37,242 nt of DNA. Origin: Chlorobiota bacterium. Lineage in GTDB: Bacteria > Bacteroidota > Bacteroidia > Bacteroidales > JAADJA01. Positions within the stretch are counted from its first letter, which is position 1; every line of letters starts with the position of its first letter. The notes under the pieces are model-generated. The model was not told where the DNA came from, made no database searches, and saw only the letters and a program-made list of their open reading frames with translations. Shown here one piece after another: positions 20,742 through 34,437 of this stretch. A program made the position numbers and the translations under genes. Where the stretch lies: contig JAADJA010000083.1 in the NCBI GenBank assembly GCA_013151015.1, positions 1 to 37,242 on the forward strand, given 5' to 3'.

Positions 20742-22409
20742 TTATAAACCTAAAGCTTCAGGTCCCTGGATGAAATAAATATCAACAGGAATACCGGCGC
20801 TTTCCAATCTGTCAAGGTCGGCCTGCAATTCGGGTTTGATTATCCCCGATTCGTCAAGAAGCTTTTTGGTGCCGGCATAATCGCCATCGCCCTGGAGTTT
20901 CAAAATAATTTGCGTTAACTCTTTTGATGCCGATTTCATCTTTTCAATGTCAATGGAATAAGTCCCGTCAGCGTTCTTGATAAAAGCCCCTTTTTCCGCA
21001 AAGAAATTAAAACGCACCATATTTGCTTTTCCGTGGGCACTGGAAAGGCCAAATCGCACGGAACGGAAAATGCCGGCCATGAAAGTCACATAATTGTCCA
21101 TCAGGTCGGTATCGCCAAATTCACCCATCTCGTTCAACCGGGTCACAAGGTAAAGGCCAAGGATGTCGGCTTTCCCTTCTTCCAAAGCTGAGTATTGCTC
21201 TTTCAAAGCATGGCGGACTGTCCCGTTGCCGTCAATGGTGTTTTTTATCCCCATCCCATGGGCAACTTCATGCAGCATGGTATTGGCGAAAAAAGCATCG
21301 AAGGTAATATGTTTTCTCTGGTTTTCTGCAATAAGCATATTTGAAATGGGAACGAGGATATTGTCGAATTTTGCCCGCATGGCATTTTTCAATTGAAGTT
21401 TCCTTGTCCCTTTCTTAAGCTGGACTTCTTCGTCGTTGGGCAGGTTAATGGCGATGGTTTTGCCGGCCATATTGCAATCGCCGCCATAAAATACCACATC
21501 ATAAGCGTTGAGGTCGGCATCCGAACCGGGGACTTCCTTTTTGTATTTTGGGTCAACGGGAAGCTCTGTTTGCAATTGTGGTAAAAAGCTGGCATATTTT
21601 GAGAGTTTATCGCTCCAAACCTTGTCTTTGATAAGGATATAGGATTCGTGGGCTGCTTTGTAACCAAATAATTTATCGGTATAGTTTTCGATGGGGCCAA
21701 TGACCAGGTCCACATTGTTGTTTTTAACATCGAGCCAGGCGAGGTCGCTGGGTTGGTAGTCATCGGTCAAAAGTGCTTCTGACCTCAATTCGAGATAATG
21801 GGCAAATTCTTTGTTACCGGCCAGTTTGGAAGCTTTTAGCAAAAGTCCTGAGGCTTCTTTCACATATTGGCTGAAAGCTTCGTGGTACCAAACGGTTTTC
21901 AATTTGCCATTTTCATCCCTTTTGATAATGGTGTACAAACTCGATTTATTGGGGTCGTCAAAAGCTTCAAATTCTTCTTTGGTCATGTCTTTTGGGTAAA
22001 ACTCCGCGCCAAGGGGTTTTGCGCCATAGCCTTTCACGAAAACCTTTAAATCGTCCATTTCGTCCCAGGGGCCGTAATTGATTTCAGCAAATCTTTTTGT
22101 GGCCGGATCTTTAATGCCGGATAAGAATTCTTCTTTATCGCCTACATTTTCCAACCAGAAAATGTCATCCATGATTTTGGCCGCTTTAAACAGAAGTTTC
22201 AGCATTTCTTTTTCTTTGTCGTTCAGGTGCGAAATGTCCGCAGTAAGTTTAAATGGGGCATATTCGTCAACTTTTTTCTGCATTTCGGAAACTCCGGTTG
22301 TTTTTGTGTCCACAGGTTCTTCTTTTTTTTGTGTATTGTTGCTACAGCTTGTCACGATAACAATAATGCCAAGCAAAATTAAGGGGGCGGTGATTTTTTT
22401 CATTTCCAT
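20742..22409 (-). CDS. M49-family peptidase (dipeptidyl-peptidase III-like), lipoprotein
   Basis: 555 residues from ATG 22409 (MEMKKITAPL); the frame extends to 22571 but the extra part is AT-rich and non-coding in character. The lipobox IVTSC gives Cys22 as anchor. The zinc site is HEVAH at 380-384 with EEGKAD at 410-415. Classical DPP III enzymes have the hexapeptide HExxGH, so this belongs to the group with the shorter HExxH, as I recall for the bacterial Caldithrix enzyme and the Nudix-fused plant forms. Other family-like parts: FYGGDCNMAGKTIAINLPND and FFAEKGAF. It probably cleaves dipeptides or short peptides in the periplasm; the specificity is not readable. Confidence 0.85.
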   Translation of the reverse strand: MEMKKITAPLILLGIIVIVTSCSNNTQKKEEPVDTKTTGVSEMQKKVDEYAPFKLTADISHLNDKEKEMLKLLFKAAKIMDDIFWLENVGDKEEFLSGIKDPATKRFAEINYGPWDEMDDLKVFVKGYGAKPLGAEFYPKDMTKEEFEAFDDPNKSSLYTIIKRDENGKLKTVWYHEAFSQYVKEASGLLLKASKLAGNKEFAHYLELRSEALLTDDYQPSDLAWLDVKNNNVDLVIGPIENYTDKLFGYKAAHESYILIKDKVWSDKLSKYASFLPQLQTELPVDPKYKKEVPGSDADLNAYDVVFYGGDCNMAGKTIAINLPNDEEVQLKKGTRKLQLKNAMRAKFDNILVPISNMLIAENQRKHITFDAFFANTMLHEVAHGMGIKNTIDGNGTVRHALKEQYSALEEGKADILGLYLVTRLNEMGEFGDTDLMDNYVTFMAGIFRSVRFGLSSAHGKANMVRFNFFAEKGAFIKNADGTYSIDIEKMKSASKELTQIILKLQGDGDYAGTKKLLDESGIIKPELQADLDRLESAGIPVDIYFIQGPEALGL

Positions 22410-22759
22410 TGTTTTAATAAATGAATTAAATATCTGTTTAATAACGGCGAAATTAAAGATATTTTCAAACCCCAATTGTAAAAGGCAAATCTTTTTTCGG
22501 GATAATATATCCTTTTTAATTTTGTGCAACTTTTTCAAATGTGTTCTTGTCTTAATCTTATTATTGAACAACAGGGGTTTTTGGACCTGTGTTCAAACGT
22601 TCTTTGACCAGATTATATGAATTTATCCAATGTGAAAATTTGTTGGAACAAAAATTAATTTGTACTTTTACGCCCTTGTCTGTAAGCAGTTTACAGTTAG
22701 ATTGTTACGGAAGTGTCAGAAGTTAATGCCTTTGGGTCGGTTCATATCATCTATTTTTA
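22410..22759. other. Divergent intergenic region before the sigma-factor cassettes
   Basis: 350 bp between the M49 gene (minus) and the first ECF sigma gene (plus). It contains the promoter at 22639-22670 and a perfect inverted repeat CTGTAA-GCAGT-TTACAG at 22680-22696, directly downstream of the predicted start site, which could be an operator or leader hairpin. No gene is seen. Confidence 0.5.
22639..22670 (+). promoter_or_regulatory. Bacteroidota-type promoter of cassette 1
   Basis: TTTG (22639-22642) and TACTTTTA (22663-22670, seven of eight matches to TAnnTTTG) are separated by 20 bp, the same spacing as at 3018-3049. The start would be near 22677, with a leader of about 80 nt. If real, cassette 1 has a basal promoter for the primary sigma factor. 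Confidence 0.35.
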
Positions 22760-23305
22760 ATGTATTCTGAAAAAGAATTGGTAAAAGAGTGCTTGTGCGA
22801 TAATGCAAAAGCACAAGAAGAATTTTACAAGCGCTATGCACCTAAGATGTATGGGGTTTGCCTTCGTTTTGCCAAAAACCGGATGGAAGCCGATGATATT
22901 TTACAGGAAGGTTTTATCAAGGCCTTTGCAAACTTGAAATCATTTCGCAACGAAGGTTCACTTGAAGGTTGGGTCCGCCGGACAATTGTCAATACCGCAA
23001 TCAATCATGTAAAGAAATTCGCCAAATACAAAAAGGATTTGGATATCGATACGGCCGAACCTGTTCAGAAAATGAGTAGTTCAGTGGTTGATACTATTTC
23101 GGTTAATGAACTTTTAAAGTTGATAAAGGATTTGCCCATTGGTTACAAAATGGTTTTTAACCTGAACGTTATGGAAGGTTATACACATCGGGAAATTGCT
23201 TCGCTGCTCGATATTTCTGAGAATACGTCAAAATCACAATTGTCAAGGGCGAGACATACCTTGCAAAGAAAGGTAAATGAACTATATGGAATTGATCGAT
23301 CATAA
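22760..23305 (+). CDS. ECF-type RNA polymerase sigma factor (cassette 1)
   Basis: 181 residues. Region 2 (about 10-90) contains YAPKMYGVCLRFAKNRMEAD, DILQEGFIKAFANLKSF and GSLEGWVRRTIVNTAINHV. Region 4 (about 115-175) contains IKDLPIGYKMVFNLNVMEGY, THREIASLLDISENTSKSQL and SRARHTLQ, the helix-turn-helix. It directs RNA polymerase to an alternative promoter set, not identified here. The gene ends 4 bp before the beta-barrel/anti-sigma-like gene, so the two are co-transcribed and probably act as a pair. The paralogue at 26512-27069 shares both the motifs and the gene order. Confidence 0.93.
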   Translation: MYSEKELVKECLCDNAKAQEEFYKRYAPKMYGVCLRFAKNRMEADDILQEGFIKAFANLKSFRNEGSLEGWVRRTIVNTAINHVKKFAKYKKDLDIDTAEPVQKMSSSVVDTISVNELLKLIKDLPIGYKMVFNLNVMEGYTHREIASLLDISENTSKSQLSRARHTLQRKVNELYGIDRS

Positions 23306-23309
23306 ATAA

Positions 23310-24770
23310 ATGAGTAATAAAGATATAAATATTGATGACCTTTTCAGGAATGCTTTCGAGAACTTCGAAGTAGATCCTCCCGAACATGTATGGGGCAATA
23401 TCCAAAAAGACATGCAAGGGAATAATAGGGGTTCCGGTAAAACCTTCCCAAAAGGTGGGATATTGGGGATATCTGTCATACTTGTTTTAAGTAGCTTGTT
23501 CTTTATTTATCAAACAAACAACTCTGTATCAGAGGTTGTTGATTCTGCAAAAATTGCCTTAAATACGGATATTGACAATATTGAAACCCTCCTACCGGAA
23601 TACAAATCCGGCGAAAATGAAAAAAGCAACATGGCCTCTTTTAATGGACAAAGCTTATCTGAAAAGGGCGTGATCGACATTTCTGTTTCTTCAATCAATG
23701 CTGAAAGCCTTGGAAAAAGGGGAACTGACGCCATGATCGTAAAAGAAAAGCCGATAAAGGAAGTTGCCATGGAGGTTAACAACAACACAGCGTTGAACCC
23801 AAATAACAATGAATTGAGTTCGGGCAATAGTTCAGGTGAAGTTGAAAATGAGTTGGATGATATTGAAGGCGACGAAGGACAAGCTGGATTTGGTGATGAT
23901 TCTGATTTGCTTGCAATGGGCGGGTCAGGCAATGTCCATAGTGATGTCAAGGCTTCAGCGCCGATACCAGAAGAAAGCTTTGAGCAGACGCCTATTGTTG
24001 AAATGCTTGAAACGGAAGAAGCTGACGAGATTGCATCAGGGGATGTTGCAAGCCCTGAGCTGAAAAACGATTATGGAAAAAAGGGGGATTTGTATTTTGG
24101 ATTGTATTTTACGCCAGAAGTTATTTTTTATCCTTCCGATATCAATACAACAAATAAAAGCTATTCTTTGGATTTGAACATGACTTATAAGTTTTCCAGT
24201 TATTTATTGCAAAGTGGGATAGGTGTCATGTCTTCAAGTGATGACGGACAATCGAAGGTTGATTTTGAAAAGTACCTCGGCAGTTATGAAGATGTTTATG
24301 ATATTACGTTCGATACCACGGCCAATGGCGTTGTACCGGTTTACCTAACCAATACGGTTGATGTTTATGATTCGGTACAGCATGTTACGGTTACGCCCAC
24401 AAAGAACAAATACACGTATTTGCAAATACCGGTACTATTTGGTTATACCGAGGAATTCAGGCGTTTTTCATGGTTTGTGAAAGGCGGTCCTTCATTATCA
24501 TTGATGGTGAATGAAGATATATCTTCGGTAAACCTTGAAAACGACAATAACAGGATCGTAAATGTGGACAGTGAGGTGCCTGCAAGGATTAAAATGAACT
24601 GGCAAATCATATTGGCGGGTGGGGTAACCTATAAATTAGGGAACCATGTAAGTATTGGTGTTGAGCCTATGATGCGTTTTTACATGAAATCAGCTTACGA
24701 ACAAAATTCCATACAAACCAAACATCCATATTCGTTTGGGATACGAAGTGGGATAATCGTTAATTTTTAA
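23310..24770 (+). CDS. Putative trans-envelope anti-sigma/outer-membrane barrel protein (cassette 1)
   Basis: 486 residues in four parts. Residues 1-50 are cytoplasmic in prediction (NIDDLFRNAFENFEVDPPEHVW). One hydrophobic helix follows at about 50-67 (ILGISVILVLSSLFFIY). Residues 70-255 are an acidic, Ser/Asn-rich, probably unfolded linker. Residues 258-486 are strand-rich with YFGLYFTPEVIFYPS, SSYLLQSGIGVMSSSDDGQ, YLQIPVLFGY and WFVKGGPSLSLMVN, ending in VNF; the C-terminal phenylalanine is typical of outer-membrane barrels. The N-terminus could bind the sigma factor encoded 4 bp upstream. This role is inferred; no FecR or zinc anti-sigma motif is present. An alternative is an inner-membrane protein with a periplasmic beta domain. 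The paralogue at 27069-28475 has the same layout. Confidence 0.7.
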   Translation: MSNKDINIDDLFRNAFENFEVDPPEHVWGNIQKDMQGNNRGSGKTFPKGGILGISVILVLSSLFFIYQTNNSVSEVVDSAKIALNTDIDNIETLLPEYKSGENEKSNMASFNGQSLSEKGVIDISVSSINAESLGKRGTDAMIVKEKPIKEVAMEVNNNTALNPNNNELSSGNSSGEVENELDDIEGDEGQAGFGDDSDLLAMGGSGNVHSDVKASAPIPEESFEQTPIVEMLETEEADEIASGDVASPELKNDYGKKGDLYFGLYFTPEVIFYPSDINTTNKSYSLDLNMTYKFSSYLLQSGIGVMSSSDDGQSKVDFEKYLGSYEDVYDITFDTTANGVVPVYLTNTVDVYDSVQHVTVTPTKNKYTYLQIPVLFGYTEEFRRFSWFVKGGPSLSLMVNEDISSVNLENDNNRIVNVDSEVPARIKMNWQIILAGGVTYKLGNHVSIGVEPMMRFYMKSAYEQNSIQTKHPYSFGIRSGIIVNF

Positions 24771-24785
24771 GACGGTTTTACAAAA

Positions 24786-26387
24786 ATGATTTTGAGAAAA
24801 ATAAATAATAGAATGACTACAATAGCTAAAGGATTAATCCTCGGTTTATTAATTCTTGTCACTATGGCAAACGGGGCTTTTTCGCAGGGATTTCAGGGAA
24901 AATACGAGATCGTGTTAATTGGTCAGGTTGTTAACGATCAAAACAGTGCGCCCATTAAGGACCAAATGGTACATATCTCTGCCGATTCAAGTTATAACCT
25001 GAATTTTGTGTATAATAAAACCCTGTTTACTGATGGTAAAGGTTTTTTCTATGATACGATCAGCACTGATTTTTTAAAGGGGGGACTTGTTATTTCCACC
25101 AAGGATTACCTGAATGAGAAACACGATACCACAGTATATTTTAGGTTTAAATGGAGTGAGTCAAATACATTGTTTGCCAATTTTGAACTTCCGTTACTTG
25201 ATGCACAAACCGGTTATCAGGCGAACTTCAAATATTTGTGCAATCCATTTAATAACAATCCATTCGACTTTACTTTCATTGATCTTACCAATTCAACGGA
25301 TATTGTTTCCTGGGATTGGAATTTTGGTGATGGGCATTATTCCAATCAAGCAAATCCAAACCATGTATATGTAAATCCGGGTGTTTACAGGGTAACACTT
25401 AAAGTTAAGATTGAAACTACCCCGGGCGCCAAGCCCATTGAATCCTCGATCGAAAGGTTGGTAAATGTAAGGCTGAAGAGTTATTACCATCTTGGCGGAC
25501 ATGTTTTTGCGGGATACTTCCCCGTATCCATTGATACCGGGCTTGTGTATTTGTACAAAGTTGGGGAAAAGGATATCGAACCTATCGATACTGCCAATTT
25601 CAACGAAGACTTAGGGTATTATTCATTTTTCCAGCTTATTGATGGCGAGTATTTTGTAAAAGCTGACATACCCGAATCATCGAATTTGTACATGGAATAT
25701 TTCCCCACATATTACAGCAATGAATTATTCTGGACAGAGGCAGATACGATTTTTCACAATGCCCCCAATTTTGAGTATGACATACATTTAGTGCCAATCC
25801 CTCAAAATGCTTTTGGCTTGGGTTCTATTGGAGGTACTATCCATTTTGACCCTTCGGGCAAGGATTCCTCCCCTGCTAGTGATGCGGAAATCTTATTGCT
25901 GGACGAAAATGGTGTTCCTTTGACCCTCGTTTATTCCAATGAAGAAGGTGAGTTTGGTTTTGATGACCTGGAGCTGACCTCCTTTAAAGTTTTTGCTGAA
26001 GTTACCGGCAAGATTACGGATGCCATTAATGTAATACTTGATGAAGATAACCCTGAAGTGACGGATATTGAAATAGTAATTAGTTCAAATACCGTGAACG
26101 GTAGTGTGAACGGGATTTCGGATTTGGAATGGGGATCGGGTTTTGGGGAAGTGTACCCCAACCCTGTATCTGAAACAGCTTCTGTTCAGATTGTGCTTTC
26201 TGAAACAACCGAAATACAAATTGAACTTTATAATGCCACGGGCCAAATCGTGAAACAAACAACAAAGACTGCTTTTGGAGGGGAAAGTACTATTTCCATC
26301 GACCTGGGTTCACAGAAAAGCGGGATTTATTTTTTGCGCATTTCCGAAGGGGACGGTAATATAATTAAGAAGTTTGTGAAAAAATAA
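24786..26387 (+). CDS. Secreted PKD protein with T9SS sorting domain (one PKD module)
   Basis: 533 residues. Signal peptide within 1-34 (the second Met, at residue 10, is an alternative start). Order: a carboxypeptidase-regulatory-like beta domain (about 40-150), one PKD module with WDWNFGDGHYSNQANPNHVY near 175, a domain with SLYMEYFPTYYSNELFW-like sequence and a YDIHLVPI end (about 235-340), a second regulatory-like domain (SIGGTIHFDP onward, about 350-440), and a type A T9SS sorting domain from EVYPNPVSETAS (about 455) to KKFVKK. It is expected at the cell surface or released. It follows the barrel gene by 15 bp and ends before a terminator, so it is the last gene of cassette 1. Its exact function is unknown; adhesion or sensing is possible. 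Confidence 0.85.
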   Translation: MILRKINNRMTTIAKGLILGLLILVTMANGAFSQGFQGKYEIVLIGQVVNDQNSAPIKDQMVHISADSSYNLNFVYNKTLFTDGKGFFYDTISTDFLKGGLVISTKDYLNEKHDTTVYFRFKWSESNTLFANFELPLLDAQTGYQANFKYLCNPFNNNPFDFTFIDLTNSTDIVSWDWNFGDGHYSNQANPNHVYVNPGVYRVTLKVKIETTPGAKPIESSIERLVNVRLKSYYHLGGHVFAGYFPVSIDTGLVYLYKVGEKDIEPIDTANFNEDLGYYSFFQLIDGEYFVKADIPESSNLYMEYFPTYYSNELFWTEADTIFHNAPNFEYDIHLVPIPQNAFGLGSIGGTIHFDPSGKDSSPASDAEILLLDENGVPLTLVYSNEEGEFGFDDLELTSFKVFAEVTGKITDAINVILDEDNPEVTDIEIVISSNTVNGSVNGISDLEWGSGFGEVYPNPVSETASVQIVLSETTEIQIELYNATGQIVKQTTKTAFGGESTISIDLGSQKSGIYFLRISEGDGNIIKKFVKK

Positions 26388-26415
26388 ATACTGTCAATTA
26401 TTTAAAACAATACAG

Positions 26416-26444
26416 GCCCCGTAAGATGATTGCGGGGCTTTTTT
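26416..26444 (+). terminator. Intrinsic terminator ending cassette 1
   Basis: GCCCCG-TAAGATGATTG-CGGGGC is followed by six T residues, 29 bp after the stop of the one-PKD gene. It separates cassette 1 from cassette 2. Confidence 0.85.
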
Positions 26445-26511
26445 ATAATCTGTTAAATCCACAGGCAACCCTCCCTGATTTGCGGAGTCTGTTTTATCGT
26501 AATAGTTTTTG

Positions 26512-27069
26512 ATGACTGTTGATGAAAAAATAATACAAGGATGTATTGCCGGAAAAAGACGTGCCCAGAATCAATTGTACAAAGCATTTGCCCCGGGCAT
26601 GTTAGGCGTGTGCATGCGTTATTGCATGAACAGGGCCGAAGCAGAGGATGTCTTGCAGGAAGGTTTTGTGAAGGTGTTCAGGTACATTAAGAACTTCAGG
26701 AGCGATGGCTCTTTTGAAGGCTGGATAAGACGGATAATGGTGAATACGGCCATTACGAATTACAACAAAAGAAGCAAGGTGCATCATGAAGAAATCAATG
26801 AAAACACATTGTCATCAGAAGATGAAACTCCCGGTGACAAGGTGTATCTGCCAGTGGACAGGGAAATCTTGATGAGGCTTATCCAACAGTTGCCCGATGG
26901 ATATAGAATGGTGTTGAACCTATATGTTTTTGAAGGTTATAAACACAGGGAGATTAGTGGTATCCTCGGCATTTCTGAGAATACATCCAAATCACAGCTT
27001 TCAAAAGCAAGGAAATACCTGAAAAATGAAATGGAAAAATTAGAAAAAGTTAAAAACTTACAATATTAA
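26512..27069 (+). CDS. ECF-type RNA polymerase sigma factor (cassette 2)
   Basis: 185 residues from ATG 26512; a TTG one codon earlier is unlikely. Region 2 contains FAPGMLGVCMRYCMNRAEAE, DVLQEGFVKVFRYIKNF and GSFEGWIRRIMVNTAITNY. Region 4 contains LIQQLPDGYRMVLNLYVFEG, YKHREISGILGISENTSKSQ and LSKARKYL. It is a close paralogue of 22760-23305: the segments around LQEGF, EGW.RR and ISENTSKSQL are nearly the same. Its stop TAA shares one base with the ATG of the next gene (TAATG at 27067-27071), implying translational coupling with the barrel protein. Confidence 0.93.
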   Translation: MTVDEKIIQGCIAGKRRAQNQLYKAFAPGMLGVCMRYCMNRAEAEDVLQEGFVKVFRYIKNFRSDGSFEGWIRRIMVNTAITNYNKRSKVHHEEINENTLSSEDETPGDKVYLPVDREILMRLIQQLPDGYRMVLNLYVFEGYKHREISGILGISENTSKSQLSKARKYLKNEMEKLEKVKNLQY

Positions 27070-28475
27070 TGGAAGAGGGTTTTAACAATATTGATGATTT
27101 GCTGAGGAATTCGCTTGATGACTATCAGGCACAACCCTCGGCCAAAGTCTGGAAAGCTGTGTCGCGCAGCCTGTTCTTTTCGGGCATGGGGAAGATAATA
27201 ATCCTCATATCGGGTATTGCTGTCCTTTCCGTTGCTGCCTATTTGTATTGGGGTTATTCAAATGTTGGGGAAACTTCAGGTTCCAATGTTGAAGCAACTG
27301 AAATTGGCAGAACACAAAATGAAGATATGGCTTCCAGCGAAACTGCTGTTGAGGGGCAAAACCAAACTCTTGGAAAAGAAGAGGGCATATATTATGAAAA
27401 TGCAGGTTTATCGGAAAATGATGTTACGACAAACAATAATAACCTTTCAGGGAAACCTGATCATGATTTTGGGTCCCCACAGGTTGAGGATGTTCCGCTT
27501 GCTGAAATTTCAACAACGGATAAAACGGGAGAAGTGAACGATGTGATTGTTACAACGATGGTTTCAGCTTCTGTTGCTTCGAATGTCACTATACAAACAA
27601 ATACATCACAAAAGGTTTATCCCGGGCTTCCCCGGCTTTCTGAGGAAAGCCCGATGGAAAGGATGGCAATAAAAACCCTGGATGCAAATTATTTGTTTTA
27701 TCAATACAATCCAATTGGAAATATCAACGAAAGAACCCAATTCAAAGGATTGTCAGGTTTCCCGGACCATGATTATGGAAGGGCTAAATTGTTTTCCTAC
27801 GGTGTTTACGTTTCGCCCGAGGTGATTTTTATGAACGATGAAGCGAAAACCAGGAAACTGCAATTGAATTTTGATGCCGTAACGAACTACAAACCCACTA
27901 AGGATTTTTACCTCCAGGGTGGATTGGGGATTGGGGTTTCACAGGACGATGGCCGTTATAATGTTGATTATGAACAATACGATAGCGTGGGATATTATCT
28001 CGAAGTAAATTCCTATACCATTGATCCGGTTACAGGAAAACCTGTTTTCAAAACATCGATAGAAAATGTGTATGATACCGTTGCATACAATAAATTGTCG
28101 CTTACCGGAAACCGATATACCTATTTGAGGTTGTCAGGGTTTATGGGCTATAGGGTACATTATGCAAAAAGCTTTTCCGTTTTTGTAAAGGGAGGCTTGA
28201 CCTATTCCATATTGGTAAATAGCTACGAACCCAATCCTGAATTTTCAAACGGCGATGCCCTCAACTTGAAAATAACCAAGGAAACAGCCCAACGGATAAA
28301 CGACACATGGCAGGCTTCTGTTGGTGTTGGATTTAATTGTCGTTTATCGAACAGCGTTACCTTGACCGGTGAACCCATGTTCAACTATTATCTAAGGCCG
28401 GTTTATGAACGGGGGTACAATGCGAAGAACCCTTATTCCCTGGGTTTAAAACTGGGCCTGTTGTTTAAATTTTAA
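27069..28475 (+). CDS. Putative trans-envelope anti-sigma/outer-membrane barrel protein (cassette 2)
   Basis: 468 residues with the same plan as 23310-24770. A short cytoplasmic start contains NIDDLLRNSLDDYQAQPSAKVW; a hydrophobic helix lies at about 42-60 (IIILISGIAVLSVAAYLYWG); the linker is long, acidic and Asn/Thr-rich (about 65-240). The beta-rich C-terminus has FSYGVYVSPEVIFMN, FYLQGGLGIGVSQDDGRYNV, RYTYLRLSGFMGYRV, FSVFVKGGLTYSILVN and ends LLFKF with terminal Phe. Conserved points shared by both paralogues: DDL.RN at the start, SPEVIF/TPEVIF, VDYEQY/VDFEKY, VKGG, EPM..Y, PYS.G. Conservation of both the N-terminal tip and the barrel, but not the linker, suggests that these are the two working ends. 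Function inferred. Confidence 0.7.
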   Translation: MEEGFNNIDDLLRNSLDDYQAQPSAKVWKAVSRSLFFSGMGKIIILISGIAVLSVAAYLYWGYSNVGETSGSNVEATEIGRTQNEDMASSETAVEGQNQTLGKEEGIYYENAGLSENDVTTNNNNLSGKPDHDFGSPQVEDVPLAEISTTDKTGEVNDVIVTTMVSASVASNVTIQTNTSQKVYPGLPRLSEESPMERMAIKTLDANYLFYQYNPIGNINERTQFKGLSGFPDHDYGRAKLFSYGVYVSPEVIFMNDEAKTRKLQLNFDAVTNYKPTKDFYLQGGLGIGVSQDDGRYNVDYEQYDSVGYYLEVNSYTIDPVTGKPVFKTSIENVYDTVAYNKLSLTGNRYTYLRLSGFMGYRVHYAKSFSVFVKGGLTYSILVNSYEPNPEFSNGDALNLKITKETAQRINDTWQASVGVGFNCRLSNSVTLTGEPMFNYYLRPVYERGYNAKNPYSLGLKLGLLFKF

Positions 28476-28479
28476 AGTT

Positions 28480-31086
28480 ATGATTAATTTGCGCATAAAA
28501 ATATTGATACTGCTGATTGCTTCCATATTAGGATTGTTGTCCGTGGCCTTTTCACAAATCCCCCTTCATGTAAGTGGAAATATTACAGATGAAACAAGTG
28601 GTGGTGGGATTGCAAATCATCTTGTGGTCGTTTCTGTTGAATCGGGAGGTTGGACAGATTATTTTGAATACTATACCAATGAAGAAGGGTTTTACCAAAG
28701 CGATACGCTTTTTGCCGCCGGGCAGGGCATGGTAGCTGCACTTACTTATGATTGCTACGGAGTTGAGCATTTCCTGACCGGATTTTTTGATCCGGCAAAT
28801 ACGGAGTTTGTTTTTAACTTTGAAATATGTACGGACATGAACCCGCCCGATTGTGAGAACTGGTTTATTTATGATGTCATGGATTATTATACATTTGACT
28901 TTTTTGGTGTTGCAACCCCCGGGCCCGTGAATTATTACCATTGGGAATTTGGTGATGGCAATACGGGAACGGGCCAGGAAGTGACACATACATACCAGGG
29001 GAACCCGGGTGATGAATTCCTTGTTACGCTCACCACAATGTATGTGGATCCGGTGACACAGGATTCATGTTTGGCCGAGTATTCTGAATTTGTTTGGGTA
29101 GGGAATAATTTCGATTGTGTGGCACTTTTTGATTACGAAGCAGCACCTGCTTCATCCACCACAATAAGTTTTATTGATTTGTCAGAGGAAAACCCAACCA
29201 GTTGGTTCTGGGATTTTGGGGACGGTACTTTTTCCGAAGAGCAAAACCCGGTCCATGTGTATGGTTTCGAAGCTCCGTATTTTGTCTGTCTCACAATGGA
29301 AGATTCCGTAACCTCATGCTACGATACGTATTGCGAAGAGATATTCGTTGGTGATACCATAGGGAATATGATTGTTGTAGCCGGTGATGTGTTTGATGAA
29401 ATCGATTCTTCGCTTATTGTTGGCCACGATGTTTATATCAGTATCGACAGCAACAGTTTTTTTCCCGGATATAACAATATAGTTGCAACAGATGAGGATG
29501 GTACATATTCTGACTTTATTGCACTTCCCCCTGAATTTACCGAAGGTGTGGTAAATATTGGGACTTATAATTGTGTTGGGAATTTCATTAATGAAGACCT
29601 GGGATTCTCACAAAATAATTTCTTCCTGATAAAGGATTTTTATATTTGTACTGACAGTGTGCAGCTACAATGTACAGCCGATTTTACTTTTACCCAGGAC
29701 CCTTCCGATCCGTTTACCTTTTTCTTTTTCGATAATTCAAGTGGCAACATTACCGGTTACAATTGGGAATTTGGGGATGGGGATATTTCCACGGAACCCA
29801 ATCCTGTCCATGCTTATAGCTCAACCGGGGATTTTGATGTGTGCTTGGTGGTCGTTTCCGATTCTTTGGGGTATTTCTGCAGCGATACGGTTTGCAAAAC
29901 CATTACGGTCGATTATTTGCTCATGGCCGCTTTTGATTATTCCCTCGATACCTTGTCGGGCAACACCCGCCTTTTTTCCTTTACCGATATGGGCATAGGT
30001 GACCCTGATTCTTATTACTGGGATTTTGGTGATGGGAGCAGTTCCCAGGTTCAGGATCCAACCCACGAATTTGCCGGAGCGGGCGAGTTTACGGTTTGCC
30101 TCCAGGTTGTCCGAAATTTATCGGGGGGAAATGTGATGACCGATAATGTGTGCAAAACACTTGTGGCGCCGGAGTACTACGATTTTGGAGGGCTAACCTA
30201 TCTTGGTGATTACCCTTTGAACAACCCGGTTCCTGAAGGGGATACCGGCATCGCCTATTTGTACCGGAAATATAATAATACTGTTGTGCCAGCGGATACC
30301 AACTTGTTTTATGAGTTTGGATATTACTGGTTTCCGAATACACGTGAAGGGGATTATATTATAAAAGTGGGTTTGACAGACAATTCGACCCATTACAATG
30401 ATTATATGCAGGCCTATTATGTGGATGCACTTCGATGGGACAAGGCCCCTGTTTTTCAGCTTGCAGATACCGGGAATTTTATGACGGATGTTCATTTAAA
30501 AGAGCTTTATGGGACAGGGAATGGAATTGGGATGCTTTCCGGGTACATCCAAATTGAAGGGACTTGTTCAGGTTTTTCGGTGGATGGAACAATTGTCATG
30601 CTGTTCGATAATGACGATAATCTTCTCTCTTTTACCCTCACCAATGAAGATGGTGGTTTTTCCTTTTCAAATCTTGAAATGGGTTTATACAAGCTATATG
30701 CTGAAGAGACGGCCTTGTTTTCATGGGCAACTTCTGCAAACCTTGATAATGGCAATCCGGTGCAGATGGGGATTGAGCTCCAGATGACTTGTGAGGGGAC
30801 TGTTGGCGTGAATACCCTTGCTGAAAGTGGAATTGTCGTGGGGGACATTTTCCCCAATCCGGTAGTTGATGAGATCAATATCAATCTTGATTTAACCGGG
30901 GAATCCGAAGTGTGGGCCGTGGTTTTTGATATGACAGGGAGAAAAACCGAAGAACGTGTTTTTCCGCTTTTTGATGGGAACAACAGATTGAAAATATCAG
31001 CAGATCAATTGCCTAAAGGGATTTATGTCTTGTCTTTGCAATTCCCTGAAAACAAGATGAAATTCCTTAAGAAATTTGTGAAATAA
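28480..31086 (+). CDS. Secreted PKD protein with T9SS sorting domain (four PKD modules)
   Basis: 868 residues. Signal peptide MINLRIKILILLIASILGLL..AFS. Next is a regulatory-like domain (HVSGNITDETSGGGIANHLV, about 28-120), then PKD modules with W(D/E)FGDG cores near 154, 243, 428 and 513, with a further beta domain (DVYISIDSN..) between the second and third. A GGLTYLGDYPLNN domain (about 565-680, with YYVDALRWDKAP and DVHLKE), a second regulatory-like domain, and a sorting domain from VGDIFPNPVVDE (about 787) to KKFVK complete it. Paired cysteines recur in the PKD modules (SCYDTYCEE, FCSDTVC), so disulphides are likely. It starts 4 bp after the barrel gene, in cassette 2. Surface role unknown. 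Confidence 0.87.
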   Translation: MINLRIKILILLIASILGLLSVAFSQIPLHVSGNITDETSGGGIANHLVVVSVESGGWTDYFEYYTNEEGFYQSDTLFAAGQGMVAALTYDCYGVEHFLTGFFDPANTEFVFNFEICTDMNPPDCENWFIYDVMDYYTFDFFGVATPGPVNYYHWEFGDGNTGTGQEVTHTYQGNPGDEFLVTLTTMYVDPVTQDSCLAEYSEFVWVGNNFDCVALFDYEAAPASSTTISFIDLSEENPTSWFWDFGDGTFSEEQNPVHVYGFEAPYFVCLTMEDSVTSCYDTYCEEIFVGDTIGNMIVVAGDVFDEIDSSLIVGHDVYISIDSNSFFPGYNNIVATDEDGTYSDFIALPPEFTEGVVNIGTYNCVGNFINEDLGFSQNNFFLIKDFYICTDSVQLQCTADFTFTQDPSDPFTFFFFDNSSGNITGYNWEFGDGDISTEPNPVHAYSSTGDFDVCLVVVSDSLGYFCSDTVCKTITVDYLLMAAFDYSLDTLSGNTRLFSFTDMGIGDPDSYYWDFGDGSSSQVQDPTHEFAGAGEFTVCLQVVRNLSGGNVMTDNVCKTLVAPEYYDFGGLTYLGDYPLNNPVPEGDTGIAYLYRKYNNTVVPADTNLFYEFGYYWFPNTREGDYIIKVGLTDNSTHYNDYMQAYYVDALRWDKAPVFQLADTGNFMTDVHLKELYGTGNGIGMLSGYIQIEGTCSGFSVDGTIVMLFDNDDNLLSFTLTNEDGGFSFSNLEMGLYKLYAEETALFSWATSANLDNGNPVQMGIELQMTCEGTVGVNTLAESGIVVGDIFPNPVVDEININLDLTGESEVWAVVFDMTGRKTEERVFPLFDGNNRLKISADQLPKGIYVLSLQFPENKMKFLKKFVK

Positions 31087-31249
31087 TCTTCAGGTCAGGC
31101 AACCTTTCCGAAATACTTAGTCTTCAAAAACAATAACGTTGATCAAGTTCTTTTAAATTGCAATTTGAATTAAATTCATCGGGCAATCATCAAAACTGTT
31201 ACACCTTTATTAAAAGAATTAATCTATTAACAACTAAAAATTTAAGAAA

Positions 31250-34200
31250 ATGAAAAAACTATTTATTGCATTTGTGATTATGTTTCTGATGGTTCCAGCG
31301 ATATGGGCCCAGGGTACTTTATTGAATGTTAGTGGGCATGTGACCGATGATGTTGCCGGTGCCCCGATCCAAAACCACCTTGTTGTTGTTTCCGTGACTG
31401 GTGGTGGCACATTGCTGGATTACGAGTTATATACAAATGATGCAGGCTTTTATCAGGGCGATTCGATTTTTGTGGATAGCCAGGGTATGGTCATTGCCAC
31501 GACTTATGATTGCGTGGGTGAGCCATATGTGCAAGAAGGATTCTTCAATCCGGGGAATTATACGTTCGTATTTGATTTTGCCATCTGTAGCGATAGTATC
31601 CCACCAACGGATTGCGAGAACTTTTTCTGGTTCGAGACCATGGACAACCTCACCTTTGATTTTATGGGCGAAGCCGTGCCGATGCCTGCCGATGTCTATT
31701 CCTGGGACTTTGGTGATGGTTCAACAGCCAATGGCCAACAGGTTTCCCACACCTACGATGCAAACAACGGAGGGTTTTATACGGTCAGCCTAACCACCGT
31801 TTCGTACGATCCTGCAATGGGCGATTCGTGTAGTGCAACTTCAAGTCAGGAAGTATGGGTCGGAAATGGCGGTGGTGGGGAATGTCAGGCGGCATTCTCC
31901 TATGTGATGGACTCAACGCCCAATGGTTCCAACTTTGTGCAGTTTACAGATGAATCGATCGGCGACCCGGCATATTGGTTTTGGGATTTCGGGGATGGTG
32001 GCAACTCAGAAGAGCAAAACCCACAGTATGTTTATCCCGAAGATGGAACCTATCTCGTGTGCCTGACAATTATGTCCGATTCTGCAAATTCGTGCTATGA
32101 TACCTATTGCGAGGAAATTGTAATCGGAAACGGTGGTGGCGGAAACGATTGTGCTAATTACTTCTGGTATGAAACCTGGGATAATTTGACTTTTGATTTT
32201 ATGGGCGAGGCCATGCCAATACCTGCCGGTTCCTTTTCATGGGATTTTGGTGATGGGACGACCGGTAACGGACAAAGTGTTTCACATACCTATGATGCAA
32301 ACATGGGCGATATATTTACCGTCACGCTCTCCACTTTTGCATTTGATCCGGCAAGCGGTGATTCCTGTATGGCCGTGTCTTATCAGGATGTCTGGGTTGG
32401 AAACGGTGGAGGTGGCGATTGTGTGGCTGCTTTTTCTTATGAATACGATACGGTTCCGGCAGGCCCTTATGCCTTGATTTTTACCGATGAATCCATTGGC
32501 GACCCGGCATTTTGGATGTGGGATTTCGGCGATGGGGAATATTCCGAGGAACAAAACCCAAACCATACCTTTTATGAAGAGGGGACTTACCTTGTTTGCC
32601 TGACCATCATGTCCGATTCGGCAAATTCATGCTACGATATGTATTGTGAAGAAATAGTGATCGGAAACGGTGGAGGCGGAAACGAATGTGAAAGCTGGTT
32701 TGCCTATGAAGCACTTGCCACTAACTTCATGCACTTTTACGGGTTTAGTTTCCCTCAGGAGGCCGATACCTACGATTGGGACTTTGGTGATGGGAATTTT
32801 GGTTCCGGTCAGGAAGTTGAGCATCAGTTCGACCCCAACCTTGGCGATATGTTTTTGGTAACGCTCACAACTACCACGACCCTGGATTCCATTGGAGAAA
32901 CCTGCACGGCCACTTATACTGGGGAAGTCTGGGTTTCCAACGGTGGCGGAAACGATTGTGAAAACTGGTTTTGGTACGATACCTGGGATAACCTTACCTT
33001 TGACTTCTACGGTGAATCCTATCCAATGGCAGCCGATTATTATTCGTGGGATTTTGGTGATGGAACAACAGCTACAGGTTCAGAAACAGAACATACATTT
33101 GATCCGGCCAATGGGGATATCCAAATGGTCACATTGATGACCTACAGTTACGATCCCATGAGCGGCGATTCATGTGTGGCTGTTTCAATGCAGGAAGTTT
33201 ATGTCGGAGATGGATATGGGAACGATTGTGAAAACTTCTTCTTGTATCAATCCGATGGTAACCTTACCTTCGATTTTTATGGGGAAGCCATCCCTGTCCC
33301 CGCCGATGTTTATATGTGGGAATTTGGTGACGGAACAACCGCCGAAGGTCAGGAAGTAAGCCATACCTTCGATCCGAACCAGGGAAATGAATTTACGGTT
33401 TGCCTTACTACCTATTCATCCGATCCGATAATGGGAGACAGTTGCTATGCGGTTTCTTGCCAAGAGTTGACCATTGGTGGGCAAATGGGACAGGAGCTTT
33501 CAGGGACTGTTTCGATGGGGGATATGCCGGTTGACTTTGCACTTGTTGGTTTGTTTGGAATGGGAGATGATGGCTCGTTCATCTATGAATTTACCATGAC
33601 GGTTCCCGGGACAGGGTTCTATTTCTTCGAGAATGTCCCCAACGGGGAATACTATATTCTTGCCAGCCTTACACCTCAATCCCCGGAGTTTACAGAGTAT
33701 TTCCCAACCTATTACGGTGATGCCCTCTTCTGGTTCGATGCGGATTTGGTCAGTCTTGGTGTTGCGGCCAACCCATATGACATTCATTTGTTGGCTATTG
33801 ATGGCTTCAATGCAGGTTCTGCTGTAATTAATGGAACTGTAACTATTGGGACTGAAAAAGGCGGTGCCGCTGAAAATATCAACGTACTGCTGATGGATGC
33901 CGATGAGAATGCACTGGATTATGTTCTTAGTGACAATGAAGGTGTTTTTGATTTCTCAGGTTTGGATTACGGGACCTACAAACTGAAAATCGAGGTTCCC
34001 GGCGTTACATCTGAAATAGCAACTGTTGTCCTTGATGAAGAAAACCAAAGCATGGATATTTCATTTGTCCTGAAAGGGAGCAGTGCTTATTTATCGGTTG
34101 GCGATAGAAATGCAATTATCGAAAATATGGGCGAAATTTATCCGAACCCGGTAGCGGGCAATGCAAAAATGGAAATCAGTTTGCTCAGGTCTTCCAGCGT

Positions 34201-34378
34201 AAACCTTGCCATTTACAATCAAATGGGACAGGCGGTTTATACTTCCGATTTGAGTTTGCTGGCCGGTGCGCAATTGATCGACCTGAAAACATCTGATTTA
34301 AAACAAGGTGTTTACACCGTGAATTTGACCGATGATAATGGAAAAACCAGGAGAAAGAAATTTGTGAAAATCAAATAG
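31250..34378 (+). CDS. Secreted PKD protein with T9SS sorting domain (seven PKD modules)
   Basis: 1042 residues. Signal peptide MKKLFIAFVIMFLMVPAIWA. A regulatory-like domain (VSGHVTDDVAGAPIQNHLVV) is followed by seven PKD modules with W(D/E)FGDG near residues 151, 245, 330, 423, 509, 600 and 689. They alternate in two kinds: A (GQ.V.HTYD.N.G, then DSC.A.S.QEVWVGN) and B (SEEQNP, then YLVCLTIMSDSANSCYD) in the order A-B-A-B-A-A-A, joined by GNGGGGN-type linkers. Then come a PTYYGDALFWFDAD...YDIHLLAI domain, a second regulatory-like domain and the sorting domain from EIYPNPVAGNAK (about 960) to KKFVKIK. It lies 163 bp after the previous gene, so it may have its own promoter, but none is clear. 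It ends before a terminator. It is the largest member of this local paralogue set. Confidence 0.88.
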   Translation: MKKLFIAFVIMFLMVPAIWAQGTLLNVSGHVTDDVAGAPIQNHLVVVSVTGGGTLLDYELYTNDAGFYQGDSIFVDSQGMVIATTYDCVGEPYVQEGFFNPGNYTFVFDFAICSDSIPPTDCENFFWFETMDNLTFDFMGEAVPMPADVYSWDFGDGSTANGQQVSHTYDANNGGFYTVSLTTVSYDPAMGDSCSATSSQEVWVGNGGGGECQAAFSYVMDSTPNGSNFVQFTDESIGDPAYWFWDFGDGGNSEEQNPQYVYPEDGTYLVCLTIMSDSANSCYDTYCEEIVIGNGGGGNDCANYFWYETWDNLTFDFMGEAMPIPAGSFSWDFGDGTTGNGQSVSHTYDANMGDIFTVTLSTFAFDPASGDSCMAVSYQDVWVGNGGGGDCVAAFSYEYDTVPAGPYALIFTDESIGDPAFWMWDFGDGEYSEEQNPNHTFYEEGTYLVCLTIMSDSANSCYDMYCEEIVIGNGGGGNECESWFAYEALATNFMHFYGFSFPQEADTYDWDFGDGNFGSGQEVEHQFDPNLGDMFLVTLTTTTTLDSIGETCTATYTGEVWVSNGGGNDCENWFWYDTWDNLTFDFYGESYPMAADYYSWDFGDGTTATGSETEHTFDPANGDIQMVTLMTYSYDPMSGDSCVAVSMQEVYVGDGYGNDCENFFLYQSDGNLTFDFYGEAIPVPADVYMWEFGDGTTAEGQEVSHTFDPNQGNEFTVCLTTYSSDPIMGDSCYAVSCQELTIGGQMGQELSGTVSMGDMPVDFALVGLFGMGDDGSFIYEFTMTVPGTGFYFFENVPNGEYYILASLTPQSPEFTEYFPTYYGDALFWFDADLVSLGVAANPYDIHLLAIDGFNAGSAVINGTVTIGTEKGGAAENINVLLMDADENALDYVLSDNEGVFDFSGLDYGTYKLKIEVPGVTSEIATVVLDEENQSMDISFVLKGSSAYLSVGDRNAIIENMGEIYPNPVAGNAKMEISLLRSSSVNLAIYNQMGQAVYTSDLSLLAGAQLIDLKTSDLKQGVYTVNLTDDNGKTRRKKFVKIK
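31865..33480 (+). repeat. Internal PKD-coding repeats, roughly 260-280 bp each, alternating pairs of about 535-540 bp
   Basis: The A-B pair starting at about 31609 is repeated from about 32149, and A-type modules recur to about 33480. The two B modules are almost identical in protein, but their DNA differs at many third codon positions. The duplication is therefore old and kept by selection on the protein rather than recently copied. Confidence 0.7.
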
Positions 34379-34402
34379 TGTTTTTTTTCATTAACACGAT
34401 TG

Positions 34403-34437
34403 GGGGCAGTTTCCGAATAGGGCTGCCCCTTTTTTTT
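34403..34437 (+). terminator. Intrinsic terminator ending cassette 2
   Basis: GGGGCAG (34403-34409) and CTGCCCC (34423-34429) form a 7-bp stem, followed by eight T residues, 24 bp after the stop of the seven-PKD gene. Confidence 0.85.

Follow-up and report, generated by a model that had tools for sequence, protein, structure and literature searches.

How is a locus to be understood in which an extracytoplasmic function (ECF) sigma factor, a predicted outer membrane barrel protein and a surface protein secreted via the type IX secretion system (T9SS) are encoded side by side, and this twice in a row? The arrangement is found on a stretch of 37,242 nucleotides (the window) from the Bacteroidales member Chlorobiota bacterium (GCA_013151015.1), which represents a whole contig of a 4.32-Mb draft genome. 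It contains two tandem units, A and B, each consisting of genes for an ECF sigma factor (sigma A or B), a barrel protein (barrel A or B) and a protein with PKD and T9SS sorting domains (cargo A or B), and unit B is followed by a further gene of the latter type (cargo C; Table 1). As judged from domain, promoter and neighborhood comparisons, the locus represents a real, conserved gene system, most likely a circuit around Dma-type (dual membrane-spanning) trans-envelope anti-sigma factors specialized for T9SS surface proteins, with the link to the T9SS as its new part. It is rather probable that each unit acts as a trans-envelope signaling cassette which reads its surface cargo and controls the expression of this cargo.

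Distribution of the gene order

The original prediction, made from the sequence alone, had proposed to look for the three-gene order in other genomes, and this co-occurrence is indeed observed. Among 80 named loci picked solely by similarity to the sigma factor, which are closer kin than random loci, there are 23 at which the gene for a Dma-type protein has a complete co-directional gene behind it. This next gene codes for a T9SS sorting domain in 17 of the 23 cases, compared to 31 of 573 background open reading frames (ORFs) (p=9e-16), and still in 15 of 21 loci if the genus of the window is excluded (p=8e-14). A class-wide sample was obtained by an even draw of 119 genomes, 73 of which contained a match to the Dma-like barrel protein, and 40 full-length Dma-like genes, one per genome, were used for analyzing the neighborhoods. 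Against a background of 6/79, a T9SS cargo gene is the next gene in 7/29 of these loci (p=0.04) and occurs within the following genes in 11/29 (p=4e-4), while lipoprotein genes, unrelated genes or nothing are found behind the Dma gene in other lineages. The cargo gene is thus typical of this sigma clade and frequent, not general, at Dma loci class-wide.

The barrel protein is encoded in all 17 genomes of the genus that were searched, mostly in two copies separated by about 3.6 kb, and the gene order sigma-barrel-cargo/sigma-barrel-cargo-cargo is retained in the genus regions fetched. Tandem units also occur in three further lineages (loci L050, L059, L084). The double unit is more than a chance arrangement, as indicated by the genus-wide retention and these other tandems. 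In the same genome, a sigma-Dma gene pair without cargo is present on contig C32 (L007:7802-9791), and a Dma barrel gene at the edge of contig C191 is followed by genes for two T9SS proteins, one of type B (CHU_C-like) and one of type A (L008:2307-7079).

Properties of the gene products

Domains were identified by Pfam and NCBIfam profile searches with curated cut-offs. Sigma A and sigma B both contain ECF sigma regions 2 and 4 above cut-off; these domains are generic for ECF sigma factors, and both proteins are candidate members of ECF21. The barrel proteins produce OMP_b-brl matches below cut-off and a weak match to PorG. An AlphaFold2 model of barrel A, built on an alignment of 35 relatives, contains helices at residues 8-15 and 25-35, a transmembrane (TM) helix at 50-70, a disordered stretch at 72-254 and a beta-barrel at 260-486, the latter with predicted local distance difference test (pLDDT) values mostly above 80-90. 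The fold resembles the small 8-strand outer membrane barrels of NspA, OmpA and OmpW (TM-score for NspA of 0.73 by target length), and an N-terminal pattern NID.L...P...W is conserved among the relatives. In the model, the N-terminal anti-sigma region is thus followed by a single TM helix, a long disordered tether and a barrel at the C-terminus, as in the Dma family; the cognate ECF sigma gene is adjacent in both units, and an ECF sigma gene of the same type lies directly upstream of 39 of the 40 class-wide Dma-like genes. The barrel proteins are therefore probably Dma-like anti-sigma factors spanning the whole envelope. Dma anti-sigma factors are encoded beside ECF21 sigma factors (Das) in Bacteroides thetaiotaomicron, where deletion of dma2 induces its own operon most strongly (PMC13088901), and by this precedent the barrel proteins are expected to bind and release their sigma factors.

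All three cargo proteins contain PKD and Por_Secre_tail/TIGR04183 domains above cut-off, the TIGR04183 scores being 60.4, 31.3 and 42.7 bits at a cut-off of 23, and the genome also encodes the SprA translocon (2573 bits, cut-off 200). With a sorting domain above the curated cut-off and a T9SS in the genome, they are regarded as T9SS cargo. Cargo A consists of an N-terminal hydrophobic helix, a beta-sandwich domain, a PKD domain, an un-named beta domain, a CarboxypepD_reg-like domain and a type A sorting domain; in the structure model it forms a row of beta-sandwich domains, with adhesins and pilins among the best structural matches. The un-named domain is common to the three cargos and to anti-sigma fusions of relatives, and all three matches in this genome, which holds at least 150 sorting-domain ORFs, are the cassette cargos. 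Exclusive association of this domain with sigma-Dma cassettes had to be rejected class-wide, because a sigma gene was found within about 8 kb at only 9 of 40 domain loci. Genes with an apparent TM helix at the N-terminus behind the domain loci L165, L170, L171 and L174 resembled Dma genes and turned out to code for sugar transferase and Lnt-like proteins.

Promoter elements

Comparison of upstream regions within the genus revealed a two-box element of the form CAGGCAACC-N15/16-AGTCT, which is located 11-23 bp before sigma B by the ORF starts used. This ECF-type motif precedes sigma B in 14/14 genus units and cargo C in 9/10. In its exact form it occurs three times in the 4.3-Mb genome, and two of the three copies are those at sigma B and cargo C; shuffled windows yield 0.05. 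The third is located on contig C125 (910-936, minus strand), with no downstream gene seen within the short locus L227. In several other genera, related forms of the motif are located before sigma genes and before secondary cargo genes; taken over all loci, a motif form is present at 20/30 T9SS-linked sigma genes and 11/90 others (p=3e-8, with loci counted as independent and uncorrected for relatedness). The motif positions would be explained most simply by sigma B (or its orthologues) transcribing its own operon and more cargo, and a role of the cargo as output of the circuit is well supported.

Unit A is preceded by a conserved TTAATTTGTANTTTTAC element, which resembles the housekeeping -7 box of Bacteroidota and is tentatively assigned to the housekeeping sigma factor because of its likeness to the published consensus TAnnTTTG (PMC9723704). 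A generic scan for sigma-70 promoters performed no better than on shuffled sequences.

Anti-sigma factors with T9SS sorting domains

At 12 of the 80 sigma-relative loci, the protein encoded directly behind the sigma factor combines an anti-sigma-like N-terminus and a TM helix with a T9SS sorting domain at its end instead of the barrel. The sorting domain belongs to type A in L054 and L064, and to type B in L066, L102, L107 and in L074, L075, L077, L078, L081, L087 and L095, the latter seven representing anti-sigma factors of about 300 residues from Crocinitomicaceae/Flavobacteriales. One of these (L077:10521-11456) is encoded by a culturable isolate, Fluviicola chungangensis. Nine of the 12 proteins were checked against Pfam and NCBIfam, and CHU_C or Por_Secre_tail scored above the curated cut-off in eight and below it in L102. 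A motif of the form GCAAC-N17/18-GTCT precedes most sigma genes of the Crocinitomicaceae/Flavobacteriales loci. In the tree of the sigma factors, the sorting-domain label changes at least six times, and at least two of these changes are forced by well-supported branches, so that the sorting-domain form requires two origins or more.

The proteins encoded directly behind the ECF sigma genes at L064:8639-10273 and L054:10538-12220 consist of the anti-sigma N-terminus, a TM helix, a PKD domain, the un-named domain, a CarboxypepD-like domain and the type A sorting domain, and thus correspond to the second gene product without its barrel plus the third gene product in a single chain. The smallest form (L103:11394-11966, 190 residues) comprises an anti-sigma region, a TM helix and the un-named domain, and is located behind a second sigma gene following a sigma-Dma-cargo-cargo unit. 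At four Flavobacteriales-type loci, an anti-sigma factor, a barrel-type protein and a type B cargo are encoded by separate consecutive genes. A split version at L089:10001-13526 and L121:9983-13128 runs over four consecutive genes, which code for a sigma factor, a short anti-sigma factor, a separate barrel-type protein and a T9SS cargo of type B. The literature searches revealed no paper that links anti-sigma factors to T9SS sorting domains. These arrangements of genes and domains provide the best argument for the cargo being more than an output, because they place cargo-type domains on the sensing side.

Discussion

In the mechanism proposed for each unit, the N-terminal helices of the barrel protein would hold the co-encoded ECF sigma factor at the inner membrane, a single TM helix and a tether of about 180 disordered residues would cross the periplasm, and the small barrel of about eight strands would sit in the outer membrane. 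The third gene is predicted to code for a surface protein of several domains (PKD/Cna-B-like), which is exported via the T9SS. The state of this protein at the outer membrane (arrival, amount or a bound partner) may be relayed via barrel and tether. This relay would free the sigma factor, which would then transcribe its own operon and further cargo. The role of the cargo as signal, i.e., as input, is what we infer here. A wider and rather speculative extension is that Bacteroidota possess a family of such ECF circuits, in which the anti-sigma factor crosses the envelope and has a T9SS-exported surface domain as its sensing end on the outside. This might be realized either in trans, with the cargo beside a Dma barrel as in the window, or in cis, with the T9SS pulling a sorting-domain anti-sigma factor through the outer membrane; a single polypeptide would then reach from the cytosol to the surface and secretion itself would set transcription.

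Some observations weigh against the proposed cassette function. The N-terminal helices of barrel A are modeled at modest confidence (pLDDT about 50-72), and the ECF-type motif is found at none of the genus upstream regions of unit A, so that self-control is supported for unit B only. The three classes are linked as originally predicted, and the self-contained system adjusting transcription receives strong support from the private conserved promoter at sigma B and cargo C, a promoter missing at unit A. Class-wide, no T9SS neighbor is present in 18/29 Dma loci with a downstream gene, and a further 11/40 loci have no co-directional downstream gene; the cargo can therefore not be the signal for all Dma proteins. 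Finally, at 31/40 loci the T9SS protein with the un-named domain has no sigma gene in its vicinity, and the domain should therefore be regarded as a general surface domain rather than a cassette marker.

The most serious alternative, which we rate as quite plausible at somewhat below even chances, regards the cargo as output only: sigma and Dma would act as a switch responding to envelope stress or to a ligand, with the barrel sensing something unrelated, while the PKD proteins would be the main regulon, co-expressed in the operon. The motif before cargo C indeed marks the cargo as output, the third gene in other lineages codes for a lipoprotein or is unrelated, and the genes behind dma2 in Bacteroides are among the most induced ones, yet dispensable for the vesicle phenotype. 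What argues for an additional role on the input side are the relatives' anti-sigma factors ending in a T9SS sorting domain or in the set of cargo domains. It appears unlikely that the units serve as an export-fault alarm, in which cargo backed up in the periplasm would touch the Dma tether or barrel and free the sigma factor. Such a monitor would find a precedent in SigP of Porphyromonas gingivalis, which ties an ECF sigma factor to the T9SS and whose pathway is fed by the sorting-domain protein PorA (PMC7712824), and the sorting-domain anti-sigma factors could themselves engage the T9SS. However, cargo-specific signaling agrees better with pairs that are private to each unit (A with A, B with B) and with a regulon made up of cargo and not of T9SS machinery; the exact motif occurs at only three sites of the genome.

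That the barrel proteins are ordinary outer membrane proteins without anti-sigma function would agree with their weak OMP_b-brl and PorG matches, but is very improbable: in place of a plain signal peptide, the proteins have helices of a cytosolic type, and these are succeeded by an internal TM helix and a long tether; moreover, the pairing with a sigma gene is strict. A chance neighborhood, in which common T9SS cargo genes happen to fall behind sigma genes, might be suspected from the abundance of sorting-domain ORFs in the genome. It is refuted in practice by the observed frequency of 74% against a background of about 5%, the order kept in the genus, the tandems elsewhere and the shared promoter; moreover, of 20 other T9SS loci in the genome, only one has such a sigma gene within about 8 kb.

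Among the known systems, FecI-FecR-FecA likewise passes the state of the outer membrane across the periplasm to an ECF sigma factor, employing a separate anti-sigma factor and a TonB-dependent receptor, whereas a single protein is predicted to reach across both membranes here. The Pfam and NCBIfam searches detected no FecR or TonB-dependent receptor domains in the unit proteins, which sets them apart from the FecI/FecR/FecA type. The original prediction knew of no described system with exactly this composition. The sigma and trans-envelope barrel half, however, matches the Dma/Das (ECF21) pairs of Bacteroides thetaiotaomicron, where the sigma gene likewise adjoins the gene for a protein with an anti-sigma domain, a TM helix, a disordered tether and a barrel at the C-terminus, and where the own operon is among the main targets (PMC13088901). 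The T9SS link is the new part: the third gene codes for a T9SS-exported PKD surface protein, the set is tandemly duplicated and an additional cargo gene is connected by a specific promoter. In Bacteroides, the genes behind dma2 are of the DUF4943/DUF4858 type, and the T9SS is not described as a partner. The PorXY-SigP system with PorA shares an ECF sigma factor tied to the T9SS and influenced by a surface sorting-domain protein, but SigP is controlled by a two-component system instead of a Dma-type anti-sigma factor and drives genes for T9SS components, not a private cargo operon (PMC7712824). Type B sorting-domain proteins anchored by PorP-like barrels are another case in which a protein with a T9SS sorting domain has its own barrel in the outer membrane as binding partner; they involve neither sigma nor anti-sigma factor and offer a model for how sorting-domain anti-sigma factors could reach the outer membrane (PMC9143113).

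As trigger of the Dma proteins, the study on Bacteroides suggests a glycan of the surface, itself unidentified. The co-encoded and co-regulated T9SS cargo, together with the natural fusions, provides a concrete candidate signal for Dma-type anti-sigma factors, which may be tested in culturable relatives such as Fluviicola (L077). The fusions of the second and third gene products in relatives suggest that the state of a secreted surface protein may be read directly from outside to the DNA. If this is true, bacteria with a T9SS, which display very many cargos, could control single surface proteins by their display.

Additional features of the window

The gene calls reproduce the three-gene order occurring twice and the spacings given in the original prediction, i.e., 4 bp between sigma and barrel genes and 15 bp between barrel and cargo genes in unit A, and a 1-base TAATG overlap and 4 bp at the same places in unit B, and they add the third PKD/T9SS gene. 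The paralogy claimed for all three classes is confirmed by the identities between the sigma factors (79/177, Z 80), the barrel proteins (132/504, Z 52) and cargos A and B (121/399, Z 59); cargos B and C share 315/1058 identical positions (Z 100). Sigma B is listed with a TTG start, and the ATG at 26512 is equally possible. The terminator expected between the units corresponds to a terminator-like hairpin, which together with the one behind cargo C represents the longest two of a scan whose total was no higher than in shuffled sequences.

Table 1. Positions of the features of units A and B in the window.
Feature	Position	Strand	Basis or remarks
Conserved TTAATTTGTANTTTTAC element upstream of unit A	22655-22671	+	Comparison of 13 upstream regions from the genus
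ECF sigma factor A, 181 aa	22760-23305	+	Sigma70_r2 2.5e-16, Sigma70_r4_2 1.7e-14
Dma-like anti-sigma A (barrel A), 486 aa	23310-24770	+	AlphaFold2 model, relatives' alignment
T9SS cargo A (PKD/T9SS A), 533 aa	24786-26387	+	Pfam/NCBIfam, structure model
Un-named beta domain ('Y.PTYYG..L.W..A'), ~115 residues	25482-25835	+	Common to cargos and relatives' fusions
Terminator-like hairpin between units	26414-26440	+	11 pairs + T tail
ECF-type motif GGCAAC-N16-AGTCT, 18 bp before sigma B	26464-26490	+	Genus upstream regions, genome scan
ECF sigma factor B, 186 aa	26509-27069	+	Sigma70_r4_2 5.8e-17
Dma-like anti-sigma B (barrel B), 468 aa	27069-28475	+	ORF call, relatives' comparison
T9SS cargo B, 868 aa, 4 PKD domains, type A sorting domain	28480-31086	+	Pfam/NCBIfam
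ECF-type motif, second copy, GGCAAC-N15-AGTCT, upstream of cargo C	31098-31123	+	
T9SS cargo C (third PKD/T9SS gene), 1042 aa, 7 PKD domains, type A sorting domain	31250-34378	+	
Terminator-like hairpin 3' of cargo C	34402-34430	+	11 pairs + T tail

The close relatives that carry a name (L048, L091) represent uncultured Bacteroidales. At L243, L244 and L253, the gene after the Dma gene codes for a repeat lipoprotein ending in '..FDVIP.N..LM.IG.DGLYQYDY..', which represents another recurrent partner. Contig C199 of the same genome (L205:5346-12591) contains two large T9SS cargo genes, directly followed by genes for another ECF sigma factor and a short anti-sigma factor. In the window itself, a peptidase M49-type gene (20742-22571, minus strand) is oriented divergently from unit A.

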